64,000 nucleotides of DNA from Herbidospora sakaeratensis (GTDB lineage Bacteria > Actinomycetota > Actinomycetes > Streptosporangiales > Streptosporangiaceae): the NCBI RefSeq assembly GCF_001570525.1, contig NZ_BBXC01000022.1:62001-126000 (forward strand). Direction: 5' to 3'. Below the pieces are notes generated by a model. It saw only the letters and a program-made list of their open reading frames with translations. It did not search any database and was not told the origin of the DNA. Made by a program: the position numbers and the translations under genes. Positions 52,666 through 64,000 of this stretch are shown in pieces; the stretch's first letter is position 1, and every line of letters starts with the position of its first letter.

Positions 52666-53991
52666 TCAGTCCGCCAATGCTGATCGGGCCGCGTCGATCT
52701 CGGCCTCCAGTGATCGGTCTTCCGGCGTTTCGCCGGCCCGGATGGCCAGGGCGCGGTCGGCGGCCACCAGCTCGCAGGCCAGGATGATCTCGTAGGGCTC
52801 GCGCGCCGCCAGGCAGGCCCGCGCGGCCTGGGTGCCGAAGCCCGCGTGGTCCTCGACGCTGCGCGACAGGACCGCGCCGCCCAGGGTCACCGGCGCGGCC
52901 AGCTGCCGGAGCGAGGCGAGGGCGTCGTGGGCGACGTACTCGAGGATCAGCGCGCCCGACTTCCCGGGCGACCCGGCCAGGAAGGGCAGCAGGCCGGTGT
53001 AGGCCGGTTCCATCAGGGTGGCCAGCCGGGCGGTCGAGAGCGACGCCGTCTGCACCAGTGCGGCCCGCAGGGCGTCGAGGGCCAGCGCGACCGGGGCGGT
53101 GTGGAAGTTGCCGTTGTGCCAGGCCGCCTCGCCGGCGATCAGCGGGTTCTCGGCGGCCGAGTTCATGTCGATGGTGACCGCGCGGCGGGCCACGTCGAGG
53201 GCGTCGAACGCCGCGCCGTGGACCTGCGGCAGCGCGCGGTAGCCGTAGGGATCCTGGAGGCGGCCCGCGGGGGAGTGGTCGTCGAGGAGGGCGCTCAGCG
53301 CGGCGGCGACCCTGGCCTGACCGGGGTGGCGGCGGGCGCGCTGGACCTCGTACGCGAGCGGCTCGACCGAGGCCCCGGCGGCCCGCCACGTGCGGGCGGC
53401 GACCCGCACCGACGCCTCCAGCAGCCGGGCCAGATCGGCGCAGGCCAGCGCGGCGTCGGCCAGGGTCAGGGCGTTGGAGCTGATGAACGGCAGGGCGTCG
53501 GCGGAGGCCAGCGGGAAACGCGGACCGTTCCAGGGCGTCTCGCCGAGCAGGCACAGGGCCGTGGTCGACAGGGCGGTGAGGTCGCCGGTGCCGATCGCCC
53601 CATAAAGGCGGATCGGCGGGGCGGCCCCCGCGTTGATCGCCTCGGCCAGCACCGGCAGCAGCGCCGGGTCGATGCCGGAACCGCCCCGGAGGAGCTGGTT
53701 GAGGCGGACGGTCAGCATCGCGGTCGCGCGGGCCGGTTCGACCAGCGGCCCGGCGCCTCCGGCGTGGCTGCGCAGCAGGTCGAGGCCCGGTTCGTGCACC
53801 TCGACGTCCTTGTTGGCCCCCACGCCGGTGGTGCGGCCGTAGACCGGGCCGGTCTGCTCCCGGGCGGCGGCGAAGGCGTCTTCGGCCCGGGCCGGGGAGC
53901 CCAGCTCGACCGTCGCCGTGCCGTAGCCGACCGCCCTGACCTCGTCGCAGGTCAGGGTCGAGCCGTCGAGCAGGACCGTCCTAGTCGTCAA
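52666..53991 (-). CDS. HAL/PAL-family aromatic amino acid lyase with unusual MIO site
   Basis: A 441-residue ammonia-lyase-fold protein. The catalytic Tyr51 is in VYGRTTGVG, and RLQDPYGYRALPQVHG and HNGNFHTAPVAL match conserved lyase segments. The MIO-forming Ala-Ser-Gly is replaced by Gly-Thr-Gly (134-136, in AIGTGDL), so a normal methylidene-imidazolone cannot form from Ser. Family length is about 500-510, so it is also short. Possible substrates include histidine or an aromatic amino acid. It overlaps the holin-like gene by 11 nt. Confidence 0.85.
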   Translation of the reverse strand: MTTRTVLLDGSTLTCDEVRAVGYGTATVELGSPARAEDAFAAAREQTGPVYGRTTGVGANKDVEVHEPGLDLLRSHAGGAGPLVEPARATAMLTVRLNQLLRGGSGIDPALLPVLAEAINAGAAPPIRLYGAIGTGDLTALSTTALCLLGETPWNGPRFPLASADALPFISSNALTLADAALACADLARLLEASVRVAARTWRAAGASVEPLAYEVQRARRHPGQARVAAALSALLDDHSPAGRLQDPYGYRALPQVHGAAFDALDVARRAVTIDMNSAAENPLIAGEAAWHNGNFHTAPVALALDALRAALVQTASLSTARLATLMEPAYTGLLPFLAGSPGKSGALILEYVAHDALASLRQLAAPVTLGGAVLSRSVEDHAGFGTQAARACLAAREPYEIILACELVAADRALAIRAGETPEDRSLEAEIDAARSALAD

Positions 53992-58838: not shown

Positions 58839-59546
58839 TCACTGTTCCCCGCCATCCACTGGATTGGCGGGGCTATTTTTTTGCTCCTCGAACTCGCAGA
58901 CGGCGGCCATGAACTCGTCGTGGTGGCCGTACCAGACGTGGTGGTCGGCGCCCCTGATCGTGACCGCCCCCGGCGTCTCCTCCGGTACGAACCGGCTCCC
59001 CTCCGCCCGGATGACGAGCCCCGGTCGCGTCGGCGTGTAGTCCCTCCCCCCGGACGCGACCAGCAGCGCCACCGCCGTCTCCACGTCGAACAGCTTCGCC
59101 GCCTCGGCCTCGGCCTCCCGGTCGAACACGTCCCAGCCGGGGTGCTTGTCCGTCAGCGCCTCCAGGGTGCGCCGGGACTTGGCCTTCTCGTACGTCCCCC
59201 ACCACGCCTCCGCCGGCATCCGGTGCCCCGCCCCCGTGGGCGCGTCCACGTAGACGAACCGCGAAGGGGCCAGGGCCGCCCCCGCGATGAACGAGCCCAT
59301 CGAGTGCGCCACCGCCAGGTCGACCTCGGCCGGTACCGCCAGGCGCAGCTCCTGGGCCATGCGTTCGACCGTCGCGTCGGGCATCGGGGCGCTGCGGCCG
59401 TGGCCGGGGAGGTCGACGGCCACCACGCGGTAGCCGCGGGAGGCCAGGTCGGGGCCGACGCGCCACCAGCAGCCCGAGTCCGACAGGATGCCGTGCACCA
59501 GGACGGCCGTCTTCGGGCCGGTGCCCCATTCTCGGACGTTCAGCAT
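58839..59546 (-). CDS. Alpha/beta hydrolase, last gene of the chorismate operon
   Basis: A 235-residue serine hydrolase. LVHGILSDSGCWW forms the oxyanion hole, AHSMGS the nucleophile elbow (Ser about 82) and HVWYGHHDEF the catalytic His. No signal peptide. Its ATG overlaps the PhzE-like stop by 7 nt, so it is co-translated. In natural-product operons such enzymes hydrolyse or transfer acyl intermediates, or act as thioesterases; here the substrate is unassigned. Its 3' end carries the opposing terminator. Confidence 0.85.
   Translation of the reverse strand: MLNVREWGTGPKTAVLVHGILSDSGCWWRVGPDLASRGYRVVAVDLPGHGRSAPMPDATVERMAQELRLAVPAEVDLAVAHSMGSFIAGAALAPSRFVYVDAPTGAGHRMPAEAWWGTYEKAKSRRTLEALTDKHPGWDVFDREAEAEAAKLFDVETAVALLVASGGRDYTPTRPGLVIRAEGSRFVPEETPGAVTIRGADHHVWYGHHDEFMAAVCEFEEQKNSPANPVDGGEQ
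58847..58882 (+). terminator. Intrinsic terminator after the NYN gene
   Basis: CCCCGCC (58847-58853) with GGCGGGG (58866-58872), extended inside by ATCC/GGAT, is followed by CTATTTTTTT. It lies 48 nt after the NYN stop and within the 3' end of the convergent hydrolase gene. It is the best terminator in the window for its strand. Confidence 0.9.
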
Positions 59547-61390
59547 GTGGCTTCCTCTCTCGTCAGGGTGGTGAGCAGGTCGGCGAGGATCTCCACGCCG
59601 TTGCGCGTCAGCACCGAGGCCGGGTGGAACTGGACCGACGCGAAGCCGGGGCCCATGAGGGCGTGGACCTCGTCTCCTTCCCTGGAGACGGTGATGTCAC
59701 CGAGGGCGTCGGCGTTGCAGCGGGCGGCGAAGGTGTTGTAGAAGCCGGCCTGTTCCATGCGGCCGAAGAACGGGATGGTGCGCTGGACGCCCTGGTTCGG
59801 GAACGGGTTGCGGGTGATGTCGAGGCCGAGCAGGGTGCACAGGACCTGGTGGCCCAGGCAGACCGACAGGAAGGGGATACGCCGGTCGAGCAGTTCCCGG
59901 GTGGTGGCGCGCAGGCGGGCGATCTTCGGGTGGGTGAAGTCGCGGGGGTCGCCGGGGCCGGGGCCGACGATCACCACGTCGTACGCGCCGACGTCGTAGG
60001 CGTCGGAGTAGCGGGTGACCGTGACCTCGCAGCCCAGGGCGTGGATGATGTGGCGGGCCATCGCCGTGAAGGTGTCCTCCGCGTCGATGACCAGCACCTT
60101 CAGGCCGCACAGCGCCGGGATGCGGCGGTCACGGCAGTCGGGGCCCTCGAACCAGAAGCCGGCCAGGGGCTCGTTGCGCGACATCAGCGCCTGGTAGATG
60201 GCCGGGTGGCCGCCCACGTCGGCGGGGGCGTCGCGACAGGCGCCTCCACGGAGGGCTTCCAGTAGGCCTGCGGCTTTGGCCCTCGTCTCCGCCGCCTCCG
60301 ACGCCGGGTCGCTGTCGCGCACCAGGGTCGCGCCGACCGAGACGCGCAGGTCGCCCGACGCGGCGACGTCGGCGGTGCGGATCAGGATCGCCGAGTCGAG
60401 GGCGCGGGCGCCTGCCGTGTCGCGGCCGATCAGGGCGACCATGCCGGCGTAGTAGTCGCGGCCCTCCGGTTCGAACTTGGAGATCACGCGGCAGGCGCTC
60501 TCCAGCGGGCCGCCGGTGACCGTGGGGGCGAACAGGGTCTCGCGGAGGATGTCCCGGACGTCCAGGGAGCTGCGGCCCTCGATGAGGTATTCGGTGTGGG
60601 CGATGCGGGCCAGCTGCTTCAGGTGCGGGCCGAGGGCCCGGCCGCCCTGGTCGCAGACGCGGCCCATCATCTTGAGCTCCTCGTCGAGGACCATGTAGAG
60701 CTCGCCGGCCTCCTTCTCGTCGTCCAGGAAGTCGAGCACGCCGGGCAGTTCGGGGCCGCCGCGCGGGTAGCGGTAGGTGCCGCTGATGGGGTTCATCACG
60801 ACGGTGCCGGCGTCGAGGGTGATGTGGCGTTCGGGGGAGGAGCCGACGAACGTGCGGGCGCCGGTCCAGATCACGAAGGTCCAGTGGGCGCCGGGGTCGC
60901 GGCCCAGGAGGCGGCGGAAGCACGACAGGGCCGTGCGGGGCGACCAGCCCTCGATCGACGCCTGGTAGGTGCGCTTGATGACGAAGTTGGCGCCGGTGCC
61001 CTCGCCGATCTCCTCGGCCAGGATCCGGCGCACCACCGCTTCGTACTCCTCGTCGGAGGTGTCGAAGTCGCCGTCGCGCAGCTCGACGGGGTCGTCGGGG
61101 AGGACCCGCCGCGCCTCGTCCACGGAGAGGGCCGACTGGTCGGTCACGGTCATCGCCAGCAGGGGCGCGGCGTCGTCGGGGCAGGCGTAGCCGCGCTCGC
61201 GGATCTGGCGGTAGGGGAGCACGACCAGCGTCTCGTGGCCCTCGCCTCCCTCGTCGGACAGGGGGATGTCGGCGATCCGGTCGAGCGGCACGACCTCGCC
61301 GGACAGCACGTCGATGTCGGCCACGCCCGAGCCCGGGCGGTGCAGCAGCGCGAACGGGGGCGGGTCGGCGTCCAGCAGGCGGGTCAGCAT
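59540..61390 (-). CDS. phzE: PhzE-like 2-amino-2-deoxyisochorismate synthase
   Basis: A 616-residue fusion of a chorismate-utilising (MST) domain (about 1-410) and a glutamine amidotransferase domain (about 425-616), the PhzE arrangement. MNPISGTYRYPRG, FAPTVTGGPLESACRVI and HTEYLIEGRSS mark the MST active site. In the amidotransferase, SVCLGHQV contains the nucleophile Cys and QFHPASV the His, but the usual Glu two residues after His is Ala (59618-59620). The product should be ADIC from chorismate. ATG at 61390 overlaps the PhzD stop by 7 nt. Confidence 0.9.
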   Translation of the reverse strand: MLTRLLDADPPPFALLHRPGSGVADIDVLSGEVVPLDRIADIPLSDEGGEGHETLVVLPYRQIRERGYACPDDAAPLLAMTVTDQSALSVDEARRVLPDDPVELRDGDFDTSDEEYEAVVRRILAEEIGEGTGANFVIKRTYQASIEGWSPRTALSCFRRLLGRDPGAHWTFVIWTGARTFVGSSPERHITLDAGTVVMNPISGTYRYPRGGPELPGVLDFLDDEKEAGELYMVLDEELKMMGRVCDQGGRALGPHLKQLARIAHTEYLIEGRSSLDVRDILRETLFAPTVTGGPLESACRVISKFEPEGRDYYAGMVALIGRDTAGARALDSAILIRTADVAASGDLRVSVGATLVRDSDPASEAAETRAKAAGLLEALRGGACRDAPADVGGHPAIYQALMSRNEPLAGFWFEGPDCRDRRIPALCGLKVLVIDAEDTFTAMARHIIHALGCEVTVTRYSDAYDVGAYDVVIVGPGPGDPRDFTHPKIARLRATTRELLDRRIPFLSVCLGHQVLCTLLGLDITRNPFPNQGVQRTIPFFGRMEQAGFYNTFAARCNADALGDITVSREGDEVHALMGPGFASVQFHPASVLTRNGVEILADLLTTLTREEATC

Positions 61391-62010
61391 GTCGGCTCCA
61401 GTTCGTCCAGTACGCCGGCCGTCGGGATCGTCACGGCGCAGCGGGCGGCGGCGTAGTCGAGGGCCAGGCGGTGGAAGTCCGGCGTGAAGTCGGCGATCGC
61501 GTCGGCCACGACGAAGGTCTGGATGTCGTTGGAGAAGCTCTCGTGGGCGGTCATCAGGATGCCCACGTGGGCGTACACGCCGCAGATGACGAGCTGGTCG
61601 CGGCCCTGGTCGCGGAGCCGGCGCAGCAGGTCGGTGCGGCAGAACGCGCTCGGCCGCCACTTGGTCAGCACCACGTCGCCGGGGGAGGGTGCCAGGGCCG
61701 GGACGATGGCCCGGTGGGCGGGGTCGGTGGTCATGCCGGGGCCCCAGAAGTCCATCAGCAGGCCCCGGTCCTCGGTGCTCATGCCGCCGGGCTGGGCGGT
61801 GTAGAAGACCGGTGCGCCGCAGGCCGTGAACCGCTCCTTGAGCGCGCCGACGTTCGCCAGCAGCGCCGAGGGGTCGGTGAACGGGCTGAGGAAGTAGTTC
61901 TGCATGTCGTGGACGAGCAACGCCGCCCGCCGCGGATCCACCCGCCACGGGGCGATGTTGTCGGGCAGCTCGGTCGGCATCGGATAGGGCTCTATCGCGG
62001 GGATCGCCAT
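61384..62010 (-). CDS. phzD: PhzD-like isochorismatase (2,3-dihydro-3-hydroxyanthranilate-forming)
   Basis: A 208-residue cysteine-hydrolase-fold enzyme. [10 protein letters not shown] at the N-terminus, the catalytic Asp35 in LVHDMQNYF, the substrate-binding LTKWRPSAF and CGVYAHVGI match PhzD/EntB isochorismatases. With PhzE upstream in pathway, it would remove pyruvate from ADIC to yield trans-2,3-dihydro-3-hydroxyanthranilic acid. AGGAG lies 8 nt before the ATG, which suggests efficient independent translation. Confidence 0.92.
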
Positions 62011-62046
62011 GACTTTCTCCTTTCGGACGCCCAGAAGGCGCCTCCG

Positions 62047-62739
62047 TCAGACGCCCAGGCAGGCGCCTCCGTCGACCGTCAGGTCCTGCATGGTGATGTG
62101 GGCGGCGCGGTCGGAGAGCAGGAACGCGACCGCTTCTGCGACGTCCGAGGGGCTGGCCACCCGGCCCAGCGGAATGCCCACCCGGTACGCCCCGGGCGCG
62201 CCCTCGACCGAGGTCCGGATCGCGTCGGAACCGTCCCAGAGGCCGGTCAGCATCGGGGTGTCGGTGGAGCCGGGCGCGACCACGTTGCAGCGGATGCCGA
62301 ACTCGGCCAGCTCCAGCCCGAGGCACTTGGTGAACACGGTGGCTGCGGCCTTGGAGGCGGCGTAGGCGGCCATGTTCTGGCGGGCGGTCTTGGCGGCGTT
62401 CGAGGCCACGGTCACGATCGCGCCCGAATGCCGGGGGATCATCCGCCGCGCCACCGCGCGGGAGACGTGGAAGACGCCCGAGGCGTTCACCGCCAGGGTG
62501 TCGGCCCATTCGGCGTCCGACAGGTCGACGGCCCGGCCGGTCCGCAGCACTCCCGCCGCGTTGACCAGCGCGGTGATGGGCCCCGAGGTCTCCACGTGGT
62601 CGACGAAGGACTCGACCTGTGCCGAGGAGGTGACGTCGATCTCGGCGTCCAGGCCGACCACCGTGTAACCGTCGTCGGCCAGGCGTTCGCACACGGCCGA
62701 GCCGATGCCGCCGGACGCGCCGGAGACGAGGGCGATCAT
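62047..62739 (-). CDS. SDR-family dehydrogenase, EntA-like
   Basis: A 230-residue classical short-chain dehydrogenase. The NAD site is [10 protein letters not shown] (residues 6-15), with NAAG at 60-63, and Ser/Tyr/Lys catalytic residues in VASNAAK and YAASK (Tyr126, Lys130). The sequence type resembles EntA/DhbA 2,3-dihydro-2,3-dihydroxybenzoate dehydrogenases. In this operon it should aromatise 2,3-dihydro-3-hydroxyanthranilate to 3-hydroxyanthranilate. It starts within the upstream amidohydrolase stop (ATGA) and ends 36 nt before the phzD ATG. Confidence 0.9.
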
Positions 62740-64000
62740 GGCAGCTCCACCCCCAGGCACCGGACCGAGAACGAGCGCAGGGCCTCCAGGTAGTCGTCGC
62801 GGAGCGTCTGCTCGTCGGCCTTGACGACCCGGCCGTTCACGATGACGGTCTCGACGTCGGCCGACCCGCCGAGGGTCAGGAACGCCTCCAGCGGGCGCGG
62901 GTTGAGCAGGTAGCGCCAGTCGTCGGCGCGGATCAGCACCAGGTCGGCGCGGTTGCCGACCTCCAGCGAGCCGACGTCGGCGAACCCGAGCCCCTTCGCG
63001 GCGATCCGGGTGGCCATCGCGAGGGCGTCGGTCGGCAGCAGGGCGGTCGGGTCGGCGGCCATCTCCGTGTACGCCTGCCACGCCGCCGTCATGTTCTCCG
63101 CCATCCCCGGGACGGGCAACGACGCCCCGTCGGTCGACAACGACACGTCGAGCCCGGCGGCCCGCAGGGCGGGGATCTGCCGGGTCTCGGTCAGGGTCGA
63201 CTCCCCGGCGGGGCCGTACTTGGCGGGGGAGTGGGTGATGTGCGCCCCGGCCCGTACGAGCAGCTCCCGCTCCTCGGGCGTGGCGAACGCGCAGTGCACG
63301 GCGGTGAACCGCTCGTCGAGCAGGCCGAGGTCGGCGAACCGGCGTACCGGGGTGAGCCCGAAGTACTCCCGCATGGCCCGGGCCTCGTTCCGCAGCGCGC
63401 CCACGTGGGCGGCGAACGGCAGGTCGTGCGCGGCGCACAGGTCGCGCAGCCCTGATCCGAGCTCGTCGGTCATGTTGGTGGCGTACACGGCGGTGGGTCT
63501 GACCCGCACGAACGCGTCCTGGAGCGCCATGAGCCCCTCGACGCGCGCGAGCGCTTCGGCGGCGTCGCGGGTGCGGCGGCCGCAGACCGCGTCGCTGACC
63601 CACGCCGACACCGAGAGCCGCATGCCGAACTCGCGCGCCGCCTGGGCCAGCGCGGCCGGCTTGTTGACCGACCCGACGTCGCCGAGCGTGGTGACGCCGG
63701 AGCGCAGCTGCGTCCAGAGCGAGTAGCGGGCCACGGCCAGGGCCTCGTCGTCGGTGAGGGCGTCGACCAGGCCGTGGAAACGGTCGAACGCGGTCGAGAT
63801 GGCCGGGATGTCGCCGCCGTGGGCCATGAAGGCCGGTTTGTCGCCCCGGTCGGACGGCGGCCGCAGCGCCCCCTTGAACGGGTAGCGCAGGGCGAACATC
63901 TCGTGCCAGTGCGGGTTCACGAACCCGGGCAGCACCAGCATGCCGGTGGCGTCGAGCACCTCAGCGTCTGAGCTGTCCTCGAATCCGGCGATCACGCCGT
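62736..64000 (-). CDS. TRZ/ATZ-type amidohydrolase, truncated by the window
   Basis: At least 421 residues of a metal-dependent amidohydrolase (TIM barrel with flanking beta-sandwich). The HxH motif is in [10 protein letters not shown], a further His in AAHVGAL, and HCAF and STDGASLP (metal Asp) complete the site. The frame continues past 64000, as the beginning [13 protein letters not shown] lies inside the N-terminal sandwich. Most relatives deaminate or dechlorinate heterocycles; an amidohydrolase-like enzyme (NatAM) forms benzoxazoles from 3-hydroxyanthranilate units in nataxazole biosynthesis, so a cyclisation role is possible. Confidence 0.88.

Follow-up and report, generated by a model that had tools for sequence, protein, structure and literature searches.

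The window analysed here, a 64,000-nt stretch of the Herbidospora sakaeratensis genome (contig NZ_BBXC01000022.1, C22:62001-126000, within 8.6 Mb and 35 contigs), ends inside the gene for a NatAM-type amidohydrolase, one of a set of minus-strand genes. When the stretch is extended to the end of the contig, these genes fall into a 28-gene cluster that also holds amino-carrier genes and a Family 3 encapsulin. We consider it moderately likely (a probability of about 0.6) that the cluster encodes a hybrid pathway that links a caboxamycin-type acid with a sulfate-activated C7 amino acid and involves a nanocompartment. The proposal draws on the gene content, gene order, conservation and active-site residues that we observed, from which every reaction, the joining of the two halves and the encapsulin cargo are predicted.

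A 28-gene cluster extending beyond the window

Window numbering is continued past 64000, such that the C22 position is the window position plus 62000. Genes were called with a codon-usage script of our own, and start codons are therefore estimates. The cluster covers approximately 30 kb (58839-88847; C22:120839-150847), and all 28 genes were run against Pfam. They are as follows (ACP, acyl carrier protein; DAHP, 3-deoxy-D-arabino-heptulosonate 7-phosphate; DHB, 2,3-dihydroxybenzoate; KSIII, type III ketosynthase; SDR, short-chain dehydrogenase/reductase; ADIC, 2-amino-2-deoxyisochorismate).

58839-59546, minus: alpha/beta hydrolase, last operon gene (Pfam Abhydrolase_6; 7-nt overlap with the PhzE-like gene)
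59540-61390, minus: PhzE-like fused ADIC synthase/glutamine amidotransferase (Pfam Chorismate_bind and GATase; 7-nt overlap with the PhzD-like gene)
61384-62010, minus: PhzD-like isochorismatase (36-nt gap to the SDR)
62047-62739, minus: EntA/DhbA-like SDR (4-nt overlap with the amidohydrolase; CbxG position)
62736-64088, minus: NatAM/CbxE-type zinc amidohydrolase, predicted benzoxazole cyclase (5' end 88 nt past the window)
64085-64312, minus: ACP
64309-65844, minus: AMP ligase (DHB/salicylate type)
65841-66911, minus: KSIII no. 1
66908-68212, minus: salicylate synthase
68220-70325, minus: adenylation-thiolation (A-T) protein
70337-71407, minus: DAHP synthase
71395-72432, minus: KSIII no. 2
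72419-73579, minus: FAD monooxygenase (FMO; nearest model 3-hydroxybenzoate 6-monooxygenase, 422.6 bits, cut-off 459)
73715-75106, minus: major facilitator superfamily (MFS) transporter
75162-75752, plus: CGNR-type regulator
75767-76906, minus: acyl-CoA dehydrogenase
76903-78366, minus: second AMP ligase
78363-79289, minus: transketolase C half
79286-80116, minus: transketolase N half
80125-81159, minus: LysY
81156-82004, minus: LysX
82004-82186, minus: LysW
82411-83247, plus: Family 3 encapsulin
83240-84154, plus: sulfotransferase
84167-84934, plus: second SDR (SDR2)
84938-86812, plus: LysZ-LysK fusion
86809-87690, plus: CysD
87690-88847, plus: CysN

A first-pass annotation of the window had described the first five of these genes as a coupled minus-strand operon. 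All five are present on that strand with a Pfam family in agreement for each, and the junctions are as described: neighbouring genes overlap by 4, 7 and 7 nt, and there is a single 36-nt gap. The alpha/beta hydrolase lies just outside the range it gave, 59540-64000. The hydrolase is also found in the other five Herbidospora loci described below and in one further genome (G593, 51%); the loci read from Streptomyces, Pseudonocardia and Actinokineospora lack it. The predicted continuation of the cluster beyond 64000 was borne out: the ACP, ligase, KSIII no. 1 and salicylate synthase genes are chained by 4-nt overlaps, and from the SDR to 73579 the largest intergenic gap is 11 nt. The acyl-AMP ligase, transporter and regulator that the annotation had proposed to look for there are all present, together with the ACP, KSIII and salicylate synthase. 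The description of the operon as minimal does not stand, the benzoxazole genes being the end of a larger 28-gene stretch with amino-carrier and encapsulin genes.

The predicted benzoxazole cassette

Among solved structures, the amidohydrolase aligns over near its full length with PDB entries 6sj0-6sj4 (527.7 bits; next chain, 69.2), which are labelled Amidohydrolase and which we take to be NatAM. The residue numbering given for NatAM in PMC7204872 fits this alignment (HWH at 75-77, the loop at 84-88, Met103, Phe116 and Phe119). We compared 13 sequences, namely the window's amidohydrolase, 11 from other full clusters and one from the genome G438 (see below), through which NatAM numbering was transferred since its own numbering matches at the compared sites. 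The zinc ligands His75, His77, His253 and Asp345 and the catalytic His290 and Lys315 are identical in all 13, as are the pocket residues Met103, Phe116, Phe119, Tyr227, Ala256 and Leu257 and also Glu321, to which the 3-hydroxyl group is bound in NatAM (residue roles as described in PMC7204872). The suggestion of a benzoxazole-forming amidohydrolase as in nataxazole, made in the first-pass annotation, is supported in silico, as the protein groups with the NatAM entries and keeps the catalytic residues. Identity as a guanine or triazine deaminase was rejected, the best deaminase-type chain being the one at 69.2 bits, and, with the 420 aa inside the window as query, all 25 NCBIfam models listed of 33 stayed far from their cut-offs. 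As described for nataxazole, the reaction starts from the ester, with the amide formed as a shunt product, and NatAM acts after NatL2, a PaaK-type ligase that joins two 3-hydroxyanthranilates (PMC7204872); unlike that arrangement, it is a DHB/salicylate-type ligase, an ACP and a KSIII that precede this full-length NatAM homologue.

The PhzE-like protein scores 621.7 bits against PDB 3r74 (next chain, 78.6) and contains the CLGHQ and QFHP motifs, and the PhzD-like protein scores 247 bits against phzD (PDB 1nf9) with HDMQ, TKW and GVYAHVG motifs present. Chorismate, fed by the cluster's DAHP synthase, would be converted to ADIC by the PhzE-like enzyme, to 2,3-dihydro-3-hydroxyanthranilate (DHHA) by the PhzD-like enzyme and to 3-hydroxyanthranilate by the EntA-like SDR, and the earlier view of this trio as a probable 3-hydroxyanthranilate supply from chorismate agrees with our in silico results. 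A PhzE-, PhzD- and EntA-like trio leading to 3-hydroxyanthranilate is likewise described for limazepine, with Lim6 and Lim5 tested in vitro and Lim4 putative (PMC5958127), although the end product there is a pyrrolobenzodiazepine, unlike the benzoxazole predicted here. As had been noted, phzF lies outside the unit: the two PhzF-family matches in the genome are on other contigs, C17 and C16. PHZA_PHZB had no match across the genome, a weak result given that the control also matched nowhere, and phzG was not searched for. A phenazine cluster was rejected from the PhzF and PHZA_PHZB searches.

For the second ring, the salicylate synthase scores 437 bits against TIGR03494 (cut-off 325) and up to 329 bits against MbtI-type chains, and these matches rule out an isochorismate synthase for 66908-68212. 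The AMP ligase has near-equal scores as a DHB ligase (529.3 bits) and a salicylate ligase (517.0 bits); DHB is the less likely second acid, given the salicylate synthase in the cluster, and the second ring is most likely salicylate. Salicylate made by the synthase would be loaded by the AMP ligase onto the ACP and transferred to 3-hydroxyanthranilate by KSIII no. 1, which has an active-site Cys, after which the amidohydrolase would close the benzoxazole to give a caboxamycin-type acid. In three Herbidospora species (L013, L014 and L018), KSIII no. 1 is shorter by some 30 residues (326 vs 356 aa at the chosen starts), with the Cys motif kept.

The gene order salicylate synthase-KSIII-AMP ligase-ACP-amidohydrolase-SDR-PhzD-like-PhzE-like equals cbxA-B-C-D-E-G-H-I, the gene set and order (A-B-C-D-E, then G-H-I) described for caboxamycin in Streptomyces sp. 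NTK937 (PMC5481532). The two clusters differ in the DAHP synthase, which here is of the aroFGH type (TIGR00034, 437 bits) and lies upstream, whereas in the caboxamycin cluster the class II enzyme gene cbxF separates E from G. Here, KSIII no. 2, the A-T protein and the FMO are added to the operon and the amino-carrier/encapsulin half is fused on. The cbx cluster also carries cbxR, a Streptomyces antibiotic regulatory protein (SARP), whereas no SARP family was found by Pfam among the 28 genes. Genes that by eye (no family search) look SARP-like, as is cbxR, adjoin the PhzE-like end in Actinokineospora (L037 10336-11265) and Pseudonocardia (L040 2090-2947).

Such a cassette could instead lead to an N-salicyloyl amide or a mycemycin-type dibenzoxazepinone, with no benzoxazole formed and a different role for the amidohydrolase. 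The mym and mye clusters, as described in PMC5867642, share the salicylate synthase, amidohydrolase, carrier protein, AMP ligase and KSIII, and there myeD and myeG are required for mycemycin and no benzoxazole is reported to be made; a similar five-gene set can thus yield an amide-derived ring. In the present cluster, however, the amine partner would be 3-hydroxyanthranilate from the chorismate/DHHA genes, neither the tryptophan 2,3-dioxygenase nor the kynureninase family of the mym/mye kynurenine route was found by Pfam among the 28 genes, and Glu321 is invariant in the comparison above. We therefore regard an amide-derived ring as improbable, and benzoxazole closure as the preferred outcome for this half.

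Amino-carrier genes and the encapsulin

LysW, the LysX domain, LysY, the kinase and M20 domains of the LysZ-LysK fusion, the transketolase halves, the sulfotransferase and SDR2 were identified by Pfam. LysW ends in EDWGE in nine of nine LysW loci; LysY scores 338 bits as an argC-type reductase (cut-off 234) and CysD 423 bits against its NCBIfam model (cut-off 195). Glutamate carried on LysW, at its C-terminal EDWGE, would be activated by LysX and the LysZ domain and reduced by LysY, and the split transketolase would then add a C2 unit to give a C7 amino acid for reduction by SDR2. The sulfotransferase would sulfate this amino acid, with adenosine 5'-phosphosulfate (APS) supplied by CysD/CysN, before its release by the LysK domain.

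The vazabitide A and azinomycin pathways, as described in PMC9570651, have in common with this scheme a protected glutamate (on a carrier or acetylated), a kinase, a reductase, a transketolase and sulfate chemistry; the LysZ-LysK fusion, the encapsulin and the lack of a cluster aminotransferase set the present genes apart. The LysW-type carrier, kinase, reductase, transketolase and sulfate step fit that route (PMC9570651) and would also suit an aziridine (azabicycle) of the vazabitide/azinomycin type, in which case the product would be a benzoxazole analogue of azinomycin. Pfam, however, finds no aminotransferase, the activity that gives 2,6-diamino-5,7-dihydroxyheptanoic acid (DADH), among the 28 cluster genes, although an enzyme encoded elsewhere could supply it. 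The aziridine-forming enzymes of vazabitide and azinomycin are Vzb10/11 and AziU3/U2. Because the cluster lacks an aminotransferase, the expected product is a C7 amino acid, hydroxylated and sulfate-activated, or a pipecolate derived from it, in preference to the aziridine, which we consider unlikely.

The encapsulin scores 325 bits against NF041188 (cut-off 180). As a single query it finds HK97 gp5 weakly (E 0.0035), and a profile of 23 of its relatives does so over most of the length (E 4.8e-20); neither search returned a solved chain closely related by sequence. The Family 3 encapsulins described in PMC8346489 resemble it, with a shell model over the cut-off and sulfotransferase, SDR and amino-carrier neighbours in both. 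That paper gives the role of these encapsulins in natural product pathways as unknown, one such cluster having been studied experimentally by then, and its main text names no benzoxazole (0 occurrences). In 20 other Family 3 encapsulin neighbourhoods of the same family, hand-picked among 53 genomes over the cut-off and covering about 10 kb on each side (some cut by contig ends), homologues of the sulfotransferase and SDR2 occur in 19, LysW in seven and the acyl-CoA dehydrogenase in seven. These flanks provide no test for a benzoxazole cassette farther out, which is covered genome-wide by the family-sample scan below. Because the sulfotransferase and SDR2 are shared across encapsulin neighbourhoods, we place the shell with the SDR/sulfotransferase step: it most likely encloses part of the amino-carrier chemistry, with the sulfotransferase/SDR2 pair as the best guess for its cargo.

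The LysZ-LysK N-terminus is conserved as LG-x-VA, as judged by eye. A minus-strand LysR regulator assigned by Pfam (C22:157528-158394; window 95528-96394) lies 6.7 kb off the cluster and may belong to it. By eye it resembles LysR-like genes that separate LysW from the encapsulin in S. megasporus, S. termitum and G593 and that follow LysZ-LysK in Actinokineospora.

Co-occurrence of the two halves across genera

A scan with the amidohydrolase gave 31 candidates and 12 confirmed stretches, which reduce to 10 loci (five Herbidospora species, three Streptomyces, one Pseudonocardia and one Actinokineospora). Homologues of the PhzE-like, PhzD-like, SDR, ACP, AMP ligase (partly cut in L015), KSIII no. 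2, DAHP synthase and A-T genes adjoin the amidohydrolase in all 10, and the salicylate synthase and KSIII no. 1 in nine, the exception being L015, which is cut by a contig end. Each of the 10 genomes has exactly one encapsulin match, on a contig of the same size as that of the amidohydrolase. Six loci were read across, and reading in strain ms191 was confined to the two ends. The gene order is maintained in two Herbidospora, in Actinokineospora and in Pseudonocardia, with CysD/CysN apart and on the other strand in Actinokineospora, and with no FMO or MFS gene at that place in the Pseudonocardia locus. In S. megasporus and S. termitum the gene content is the same, but the benzoxazole block is inverted relative to the amino-carrier block, and KSIII no. 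2, the DAHP synthase and the A-T gene are relocated behind the PhzE-like gene. CysD/CysN were not seen before the end of the stretch in Pseudonocardia or S. megasporus.

Among 394 genomes of the class, the amidohydrolase (E 1e-80) occurs in five: the window's own, one more Herbidospora, G593, G438 and G498. G593 has the full cluster in a Streptomyces-like arrangement, with an amidohydrolase 61% identical to the window's (tblastn). Among 297 genomes of the family, the encapsulin exceeds its cut-off in 53 and the amidohydrolase (E 1e-60) is found in six, all within the 53; both are missing from a seventh Herbidospora in the sample. For 17 other cluster proteins, pairwise distances track those of the encapsulin (r 0.915-0.977; 28 pairs from eight loci).

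A possible link between the halves is KSIII no. 2. At the site corresponding to the active-site Cys of KSIII no. 1, it has Ser in all 12 loci (by motif in 11, by alignment in Pseudonocardia); Cys is present in its relatives from two other encapsulin/amino-carrier clusters. A Ser-type KSIII acyltransferase is known in DpsC, and by analogy the Ser for Cys replacement suggests an acyl-transfer role. The A-T protein and KSIII no. 2, perhaps with the second AMP ligase and the acyl-CoA dehydrogenase, would modify and join the two halves. We propose, more tentatively than the hybrid pathway itself, that the virus-derived shell compartmentalises the amino-carrier-bound, sulfate-activated chemistry and that the amino acid is capped with the caboxamycin-type benzoxazole by the Ser-type KSIII. 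To our knowledge, no member of a natural product class of benzoxazole-capped, amino-carrier-derived amino acids is known.

The cassette also occurs without the encapsulin. Relatives of the amidohydrolase in G438 (56% identical to the window's), G498 (50% by tblastn, 55% in a separate comparison) and the linear plasmid NZ_CP107856.1 of Streptomyces sp. NBC_00503 (58.8%) serve as comparisons. G438 has KSIII no. 1, ligase, ACP, amidohydrolase, SDR, PhzD-like and PhzE-like genes in the same order, and the 36 kb read contain no salicylate synthase, A-T or DAHP synthase homologue and no second KSIII. Beside that cassette, an open reading frame (L097 7781-9160) looks like a PaaK-type ligase by eye (no family search), which may place this cassette with those of nataxazole or A33853. 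The plasmid has the full caboxamycin order (L102, 327053-358486) adjoining a chorismate mutase, an acyl carrier protein and large genes with ketosynthase and SDR annotations; its 31 kb read contain only one KSIII and no A-T or DAHP synthase homologue. No encapsulin was found on plasmid records. In G498, a NatAM-like amidohydrolase (L099, C10:144882-146069) has no other cluster genes around it in the 20 kb read, a further genomic setting for this type of enzyme. The stand-alone cassettes imply that the cassette is a movable module and that the 28-gene cluster fuses two known kinds.

Two independent clusters, one caboxamycin-type and one amino-carrier/encapsulin, might instead lie side by side by chance or joint transfer and make two products. 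Each half does occur alone, and here they form separate operons with a plus-strand regulator between them. On the other hand, the halves stay together in every genome found in which amidohydrolase identity reaches 61% or more (12 of 12: the 10 scan loci, G593 and the window's own), across four or more named genera (Herbidospora, Streptomyces, Pseudonocardia and Actinokineospora) and through rearrangement, and KSIII no. 2, the A-T protein and the DAHP synthase accompany the cassette in all 10 scan loci but were not found in the stretches read in G438 and the plasmid. We judge two separate products to be rather unlikely, if less so than the aziridine or the amide-derived ring.

Besides the mycemycin precedent and the division into two operons, several points weigh against the hybrid pathway. 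The gene that would join the halves is a prediction. The six co-occurrences in the family sample are not independent because all are Herbidospora; 47 of the 53 encapsulin-positive genomes have no such amidohydrolase at E 1e-60, and high distance correlations are expected of any jointly inherited genes. No encapsulin was found in the G438 and G498 genomes or in the NZ_CP107856.1 record (the host chromosome of the plasmid was not searched), and the benzoxazole cassette is described as working alone in the caboxamycin producer (PMC5481532). Some matches fall just below threshold: LysX at 262.7 bits (NCBIfam cut-off 275.6), LysW at 49.8 (53.2) and the EntA-like SDR at 298.0 against TIGR04316 (cut-off 300; with a query frame 17 aa longer than the gene). 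In the amidohydrolase, Arg87 is replaced by Lys in 10 of the 13 sequences, Phe84 by Tyr or Leu in seven and Met79 by Leu in one. Finally, no cargo tag common to several proteins was seen by eye in the termini of 16 protein families from up to 13 loci.

Two other loci were noted in the extended stretch. MIO cofactors usually form from an Ala-Ser-Gly triad, which appears to be missing from an aromatic amino acid lyase family protein (52666-53991, minus; PF00221, 312.5 bits) with GAIGTGDL in the MIO region; it is possibly a lyase-fold protein without the cofactor. At C22:158634-162279 (window 96634-100279), a 79-aa open reading frame without a Pfam match, a YcaO cyclodehydratase (649 aa) and a ThcOx/nitroreductase-type oxidase (482 aa) look like a small azole-forming cluster for a ribosomally synthesised and post-translationally modified peptide.

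No paper naming both encapsulin and benzoxazole was found in the PMC literature covered, from which most preprints and subscription titles are missing. The combination predicted here, a benzoxazole acid with an amino-carrier-derived C7 amino acid, would be new and is predicted in named culture-collection strains. As the benzoxazole half is predictable and UV-absorbing, the consequences of deleting the shell gene or those next to it could be followed by liquid chromatography-mass spectrometry. If the hybrid pathway is correct, the job of a Family 3 encapsulin would become readable through a UV-absorbing product.

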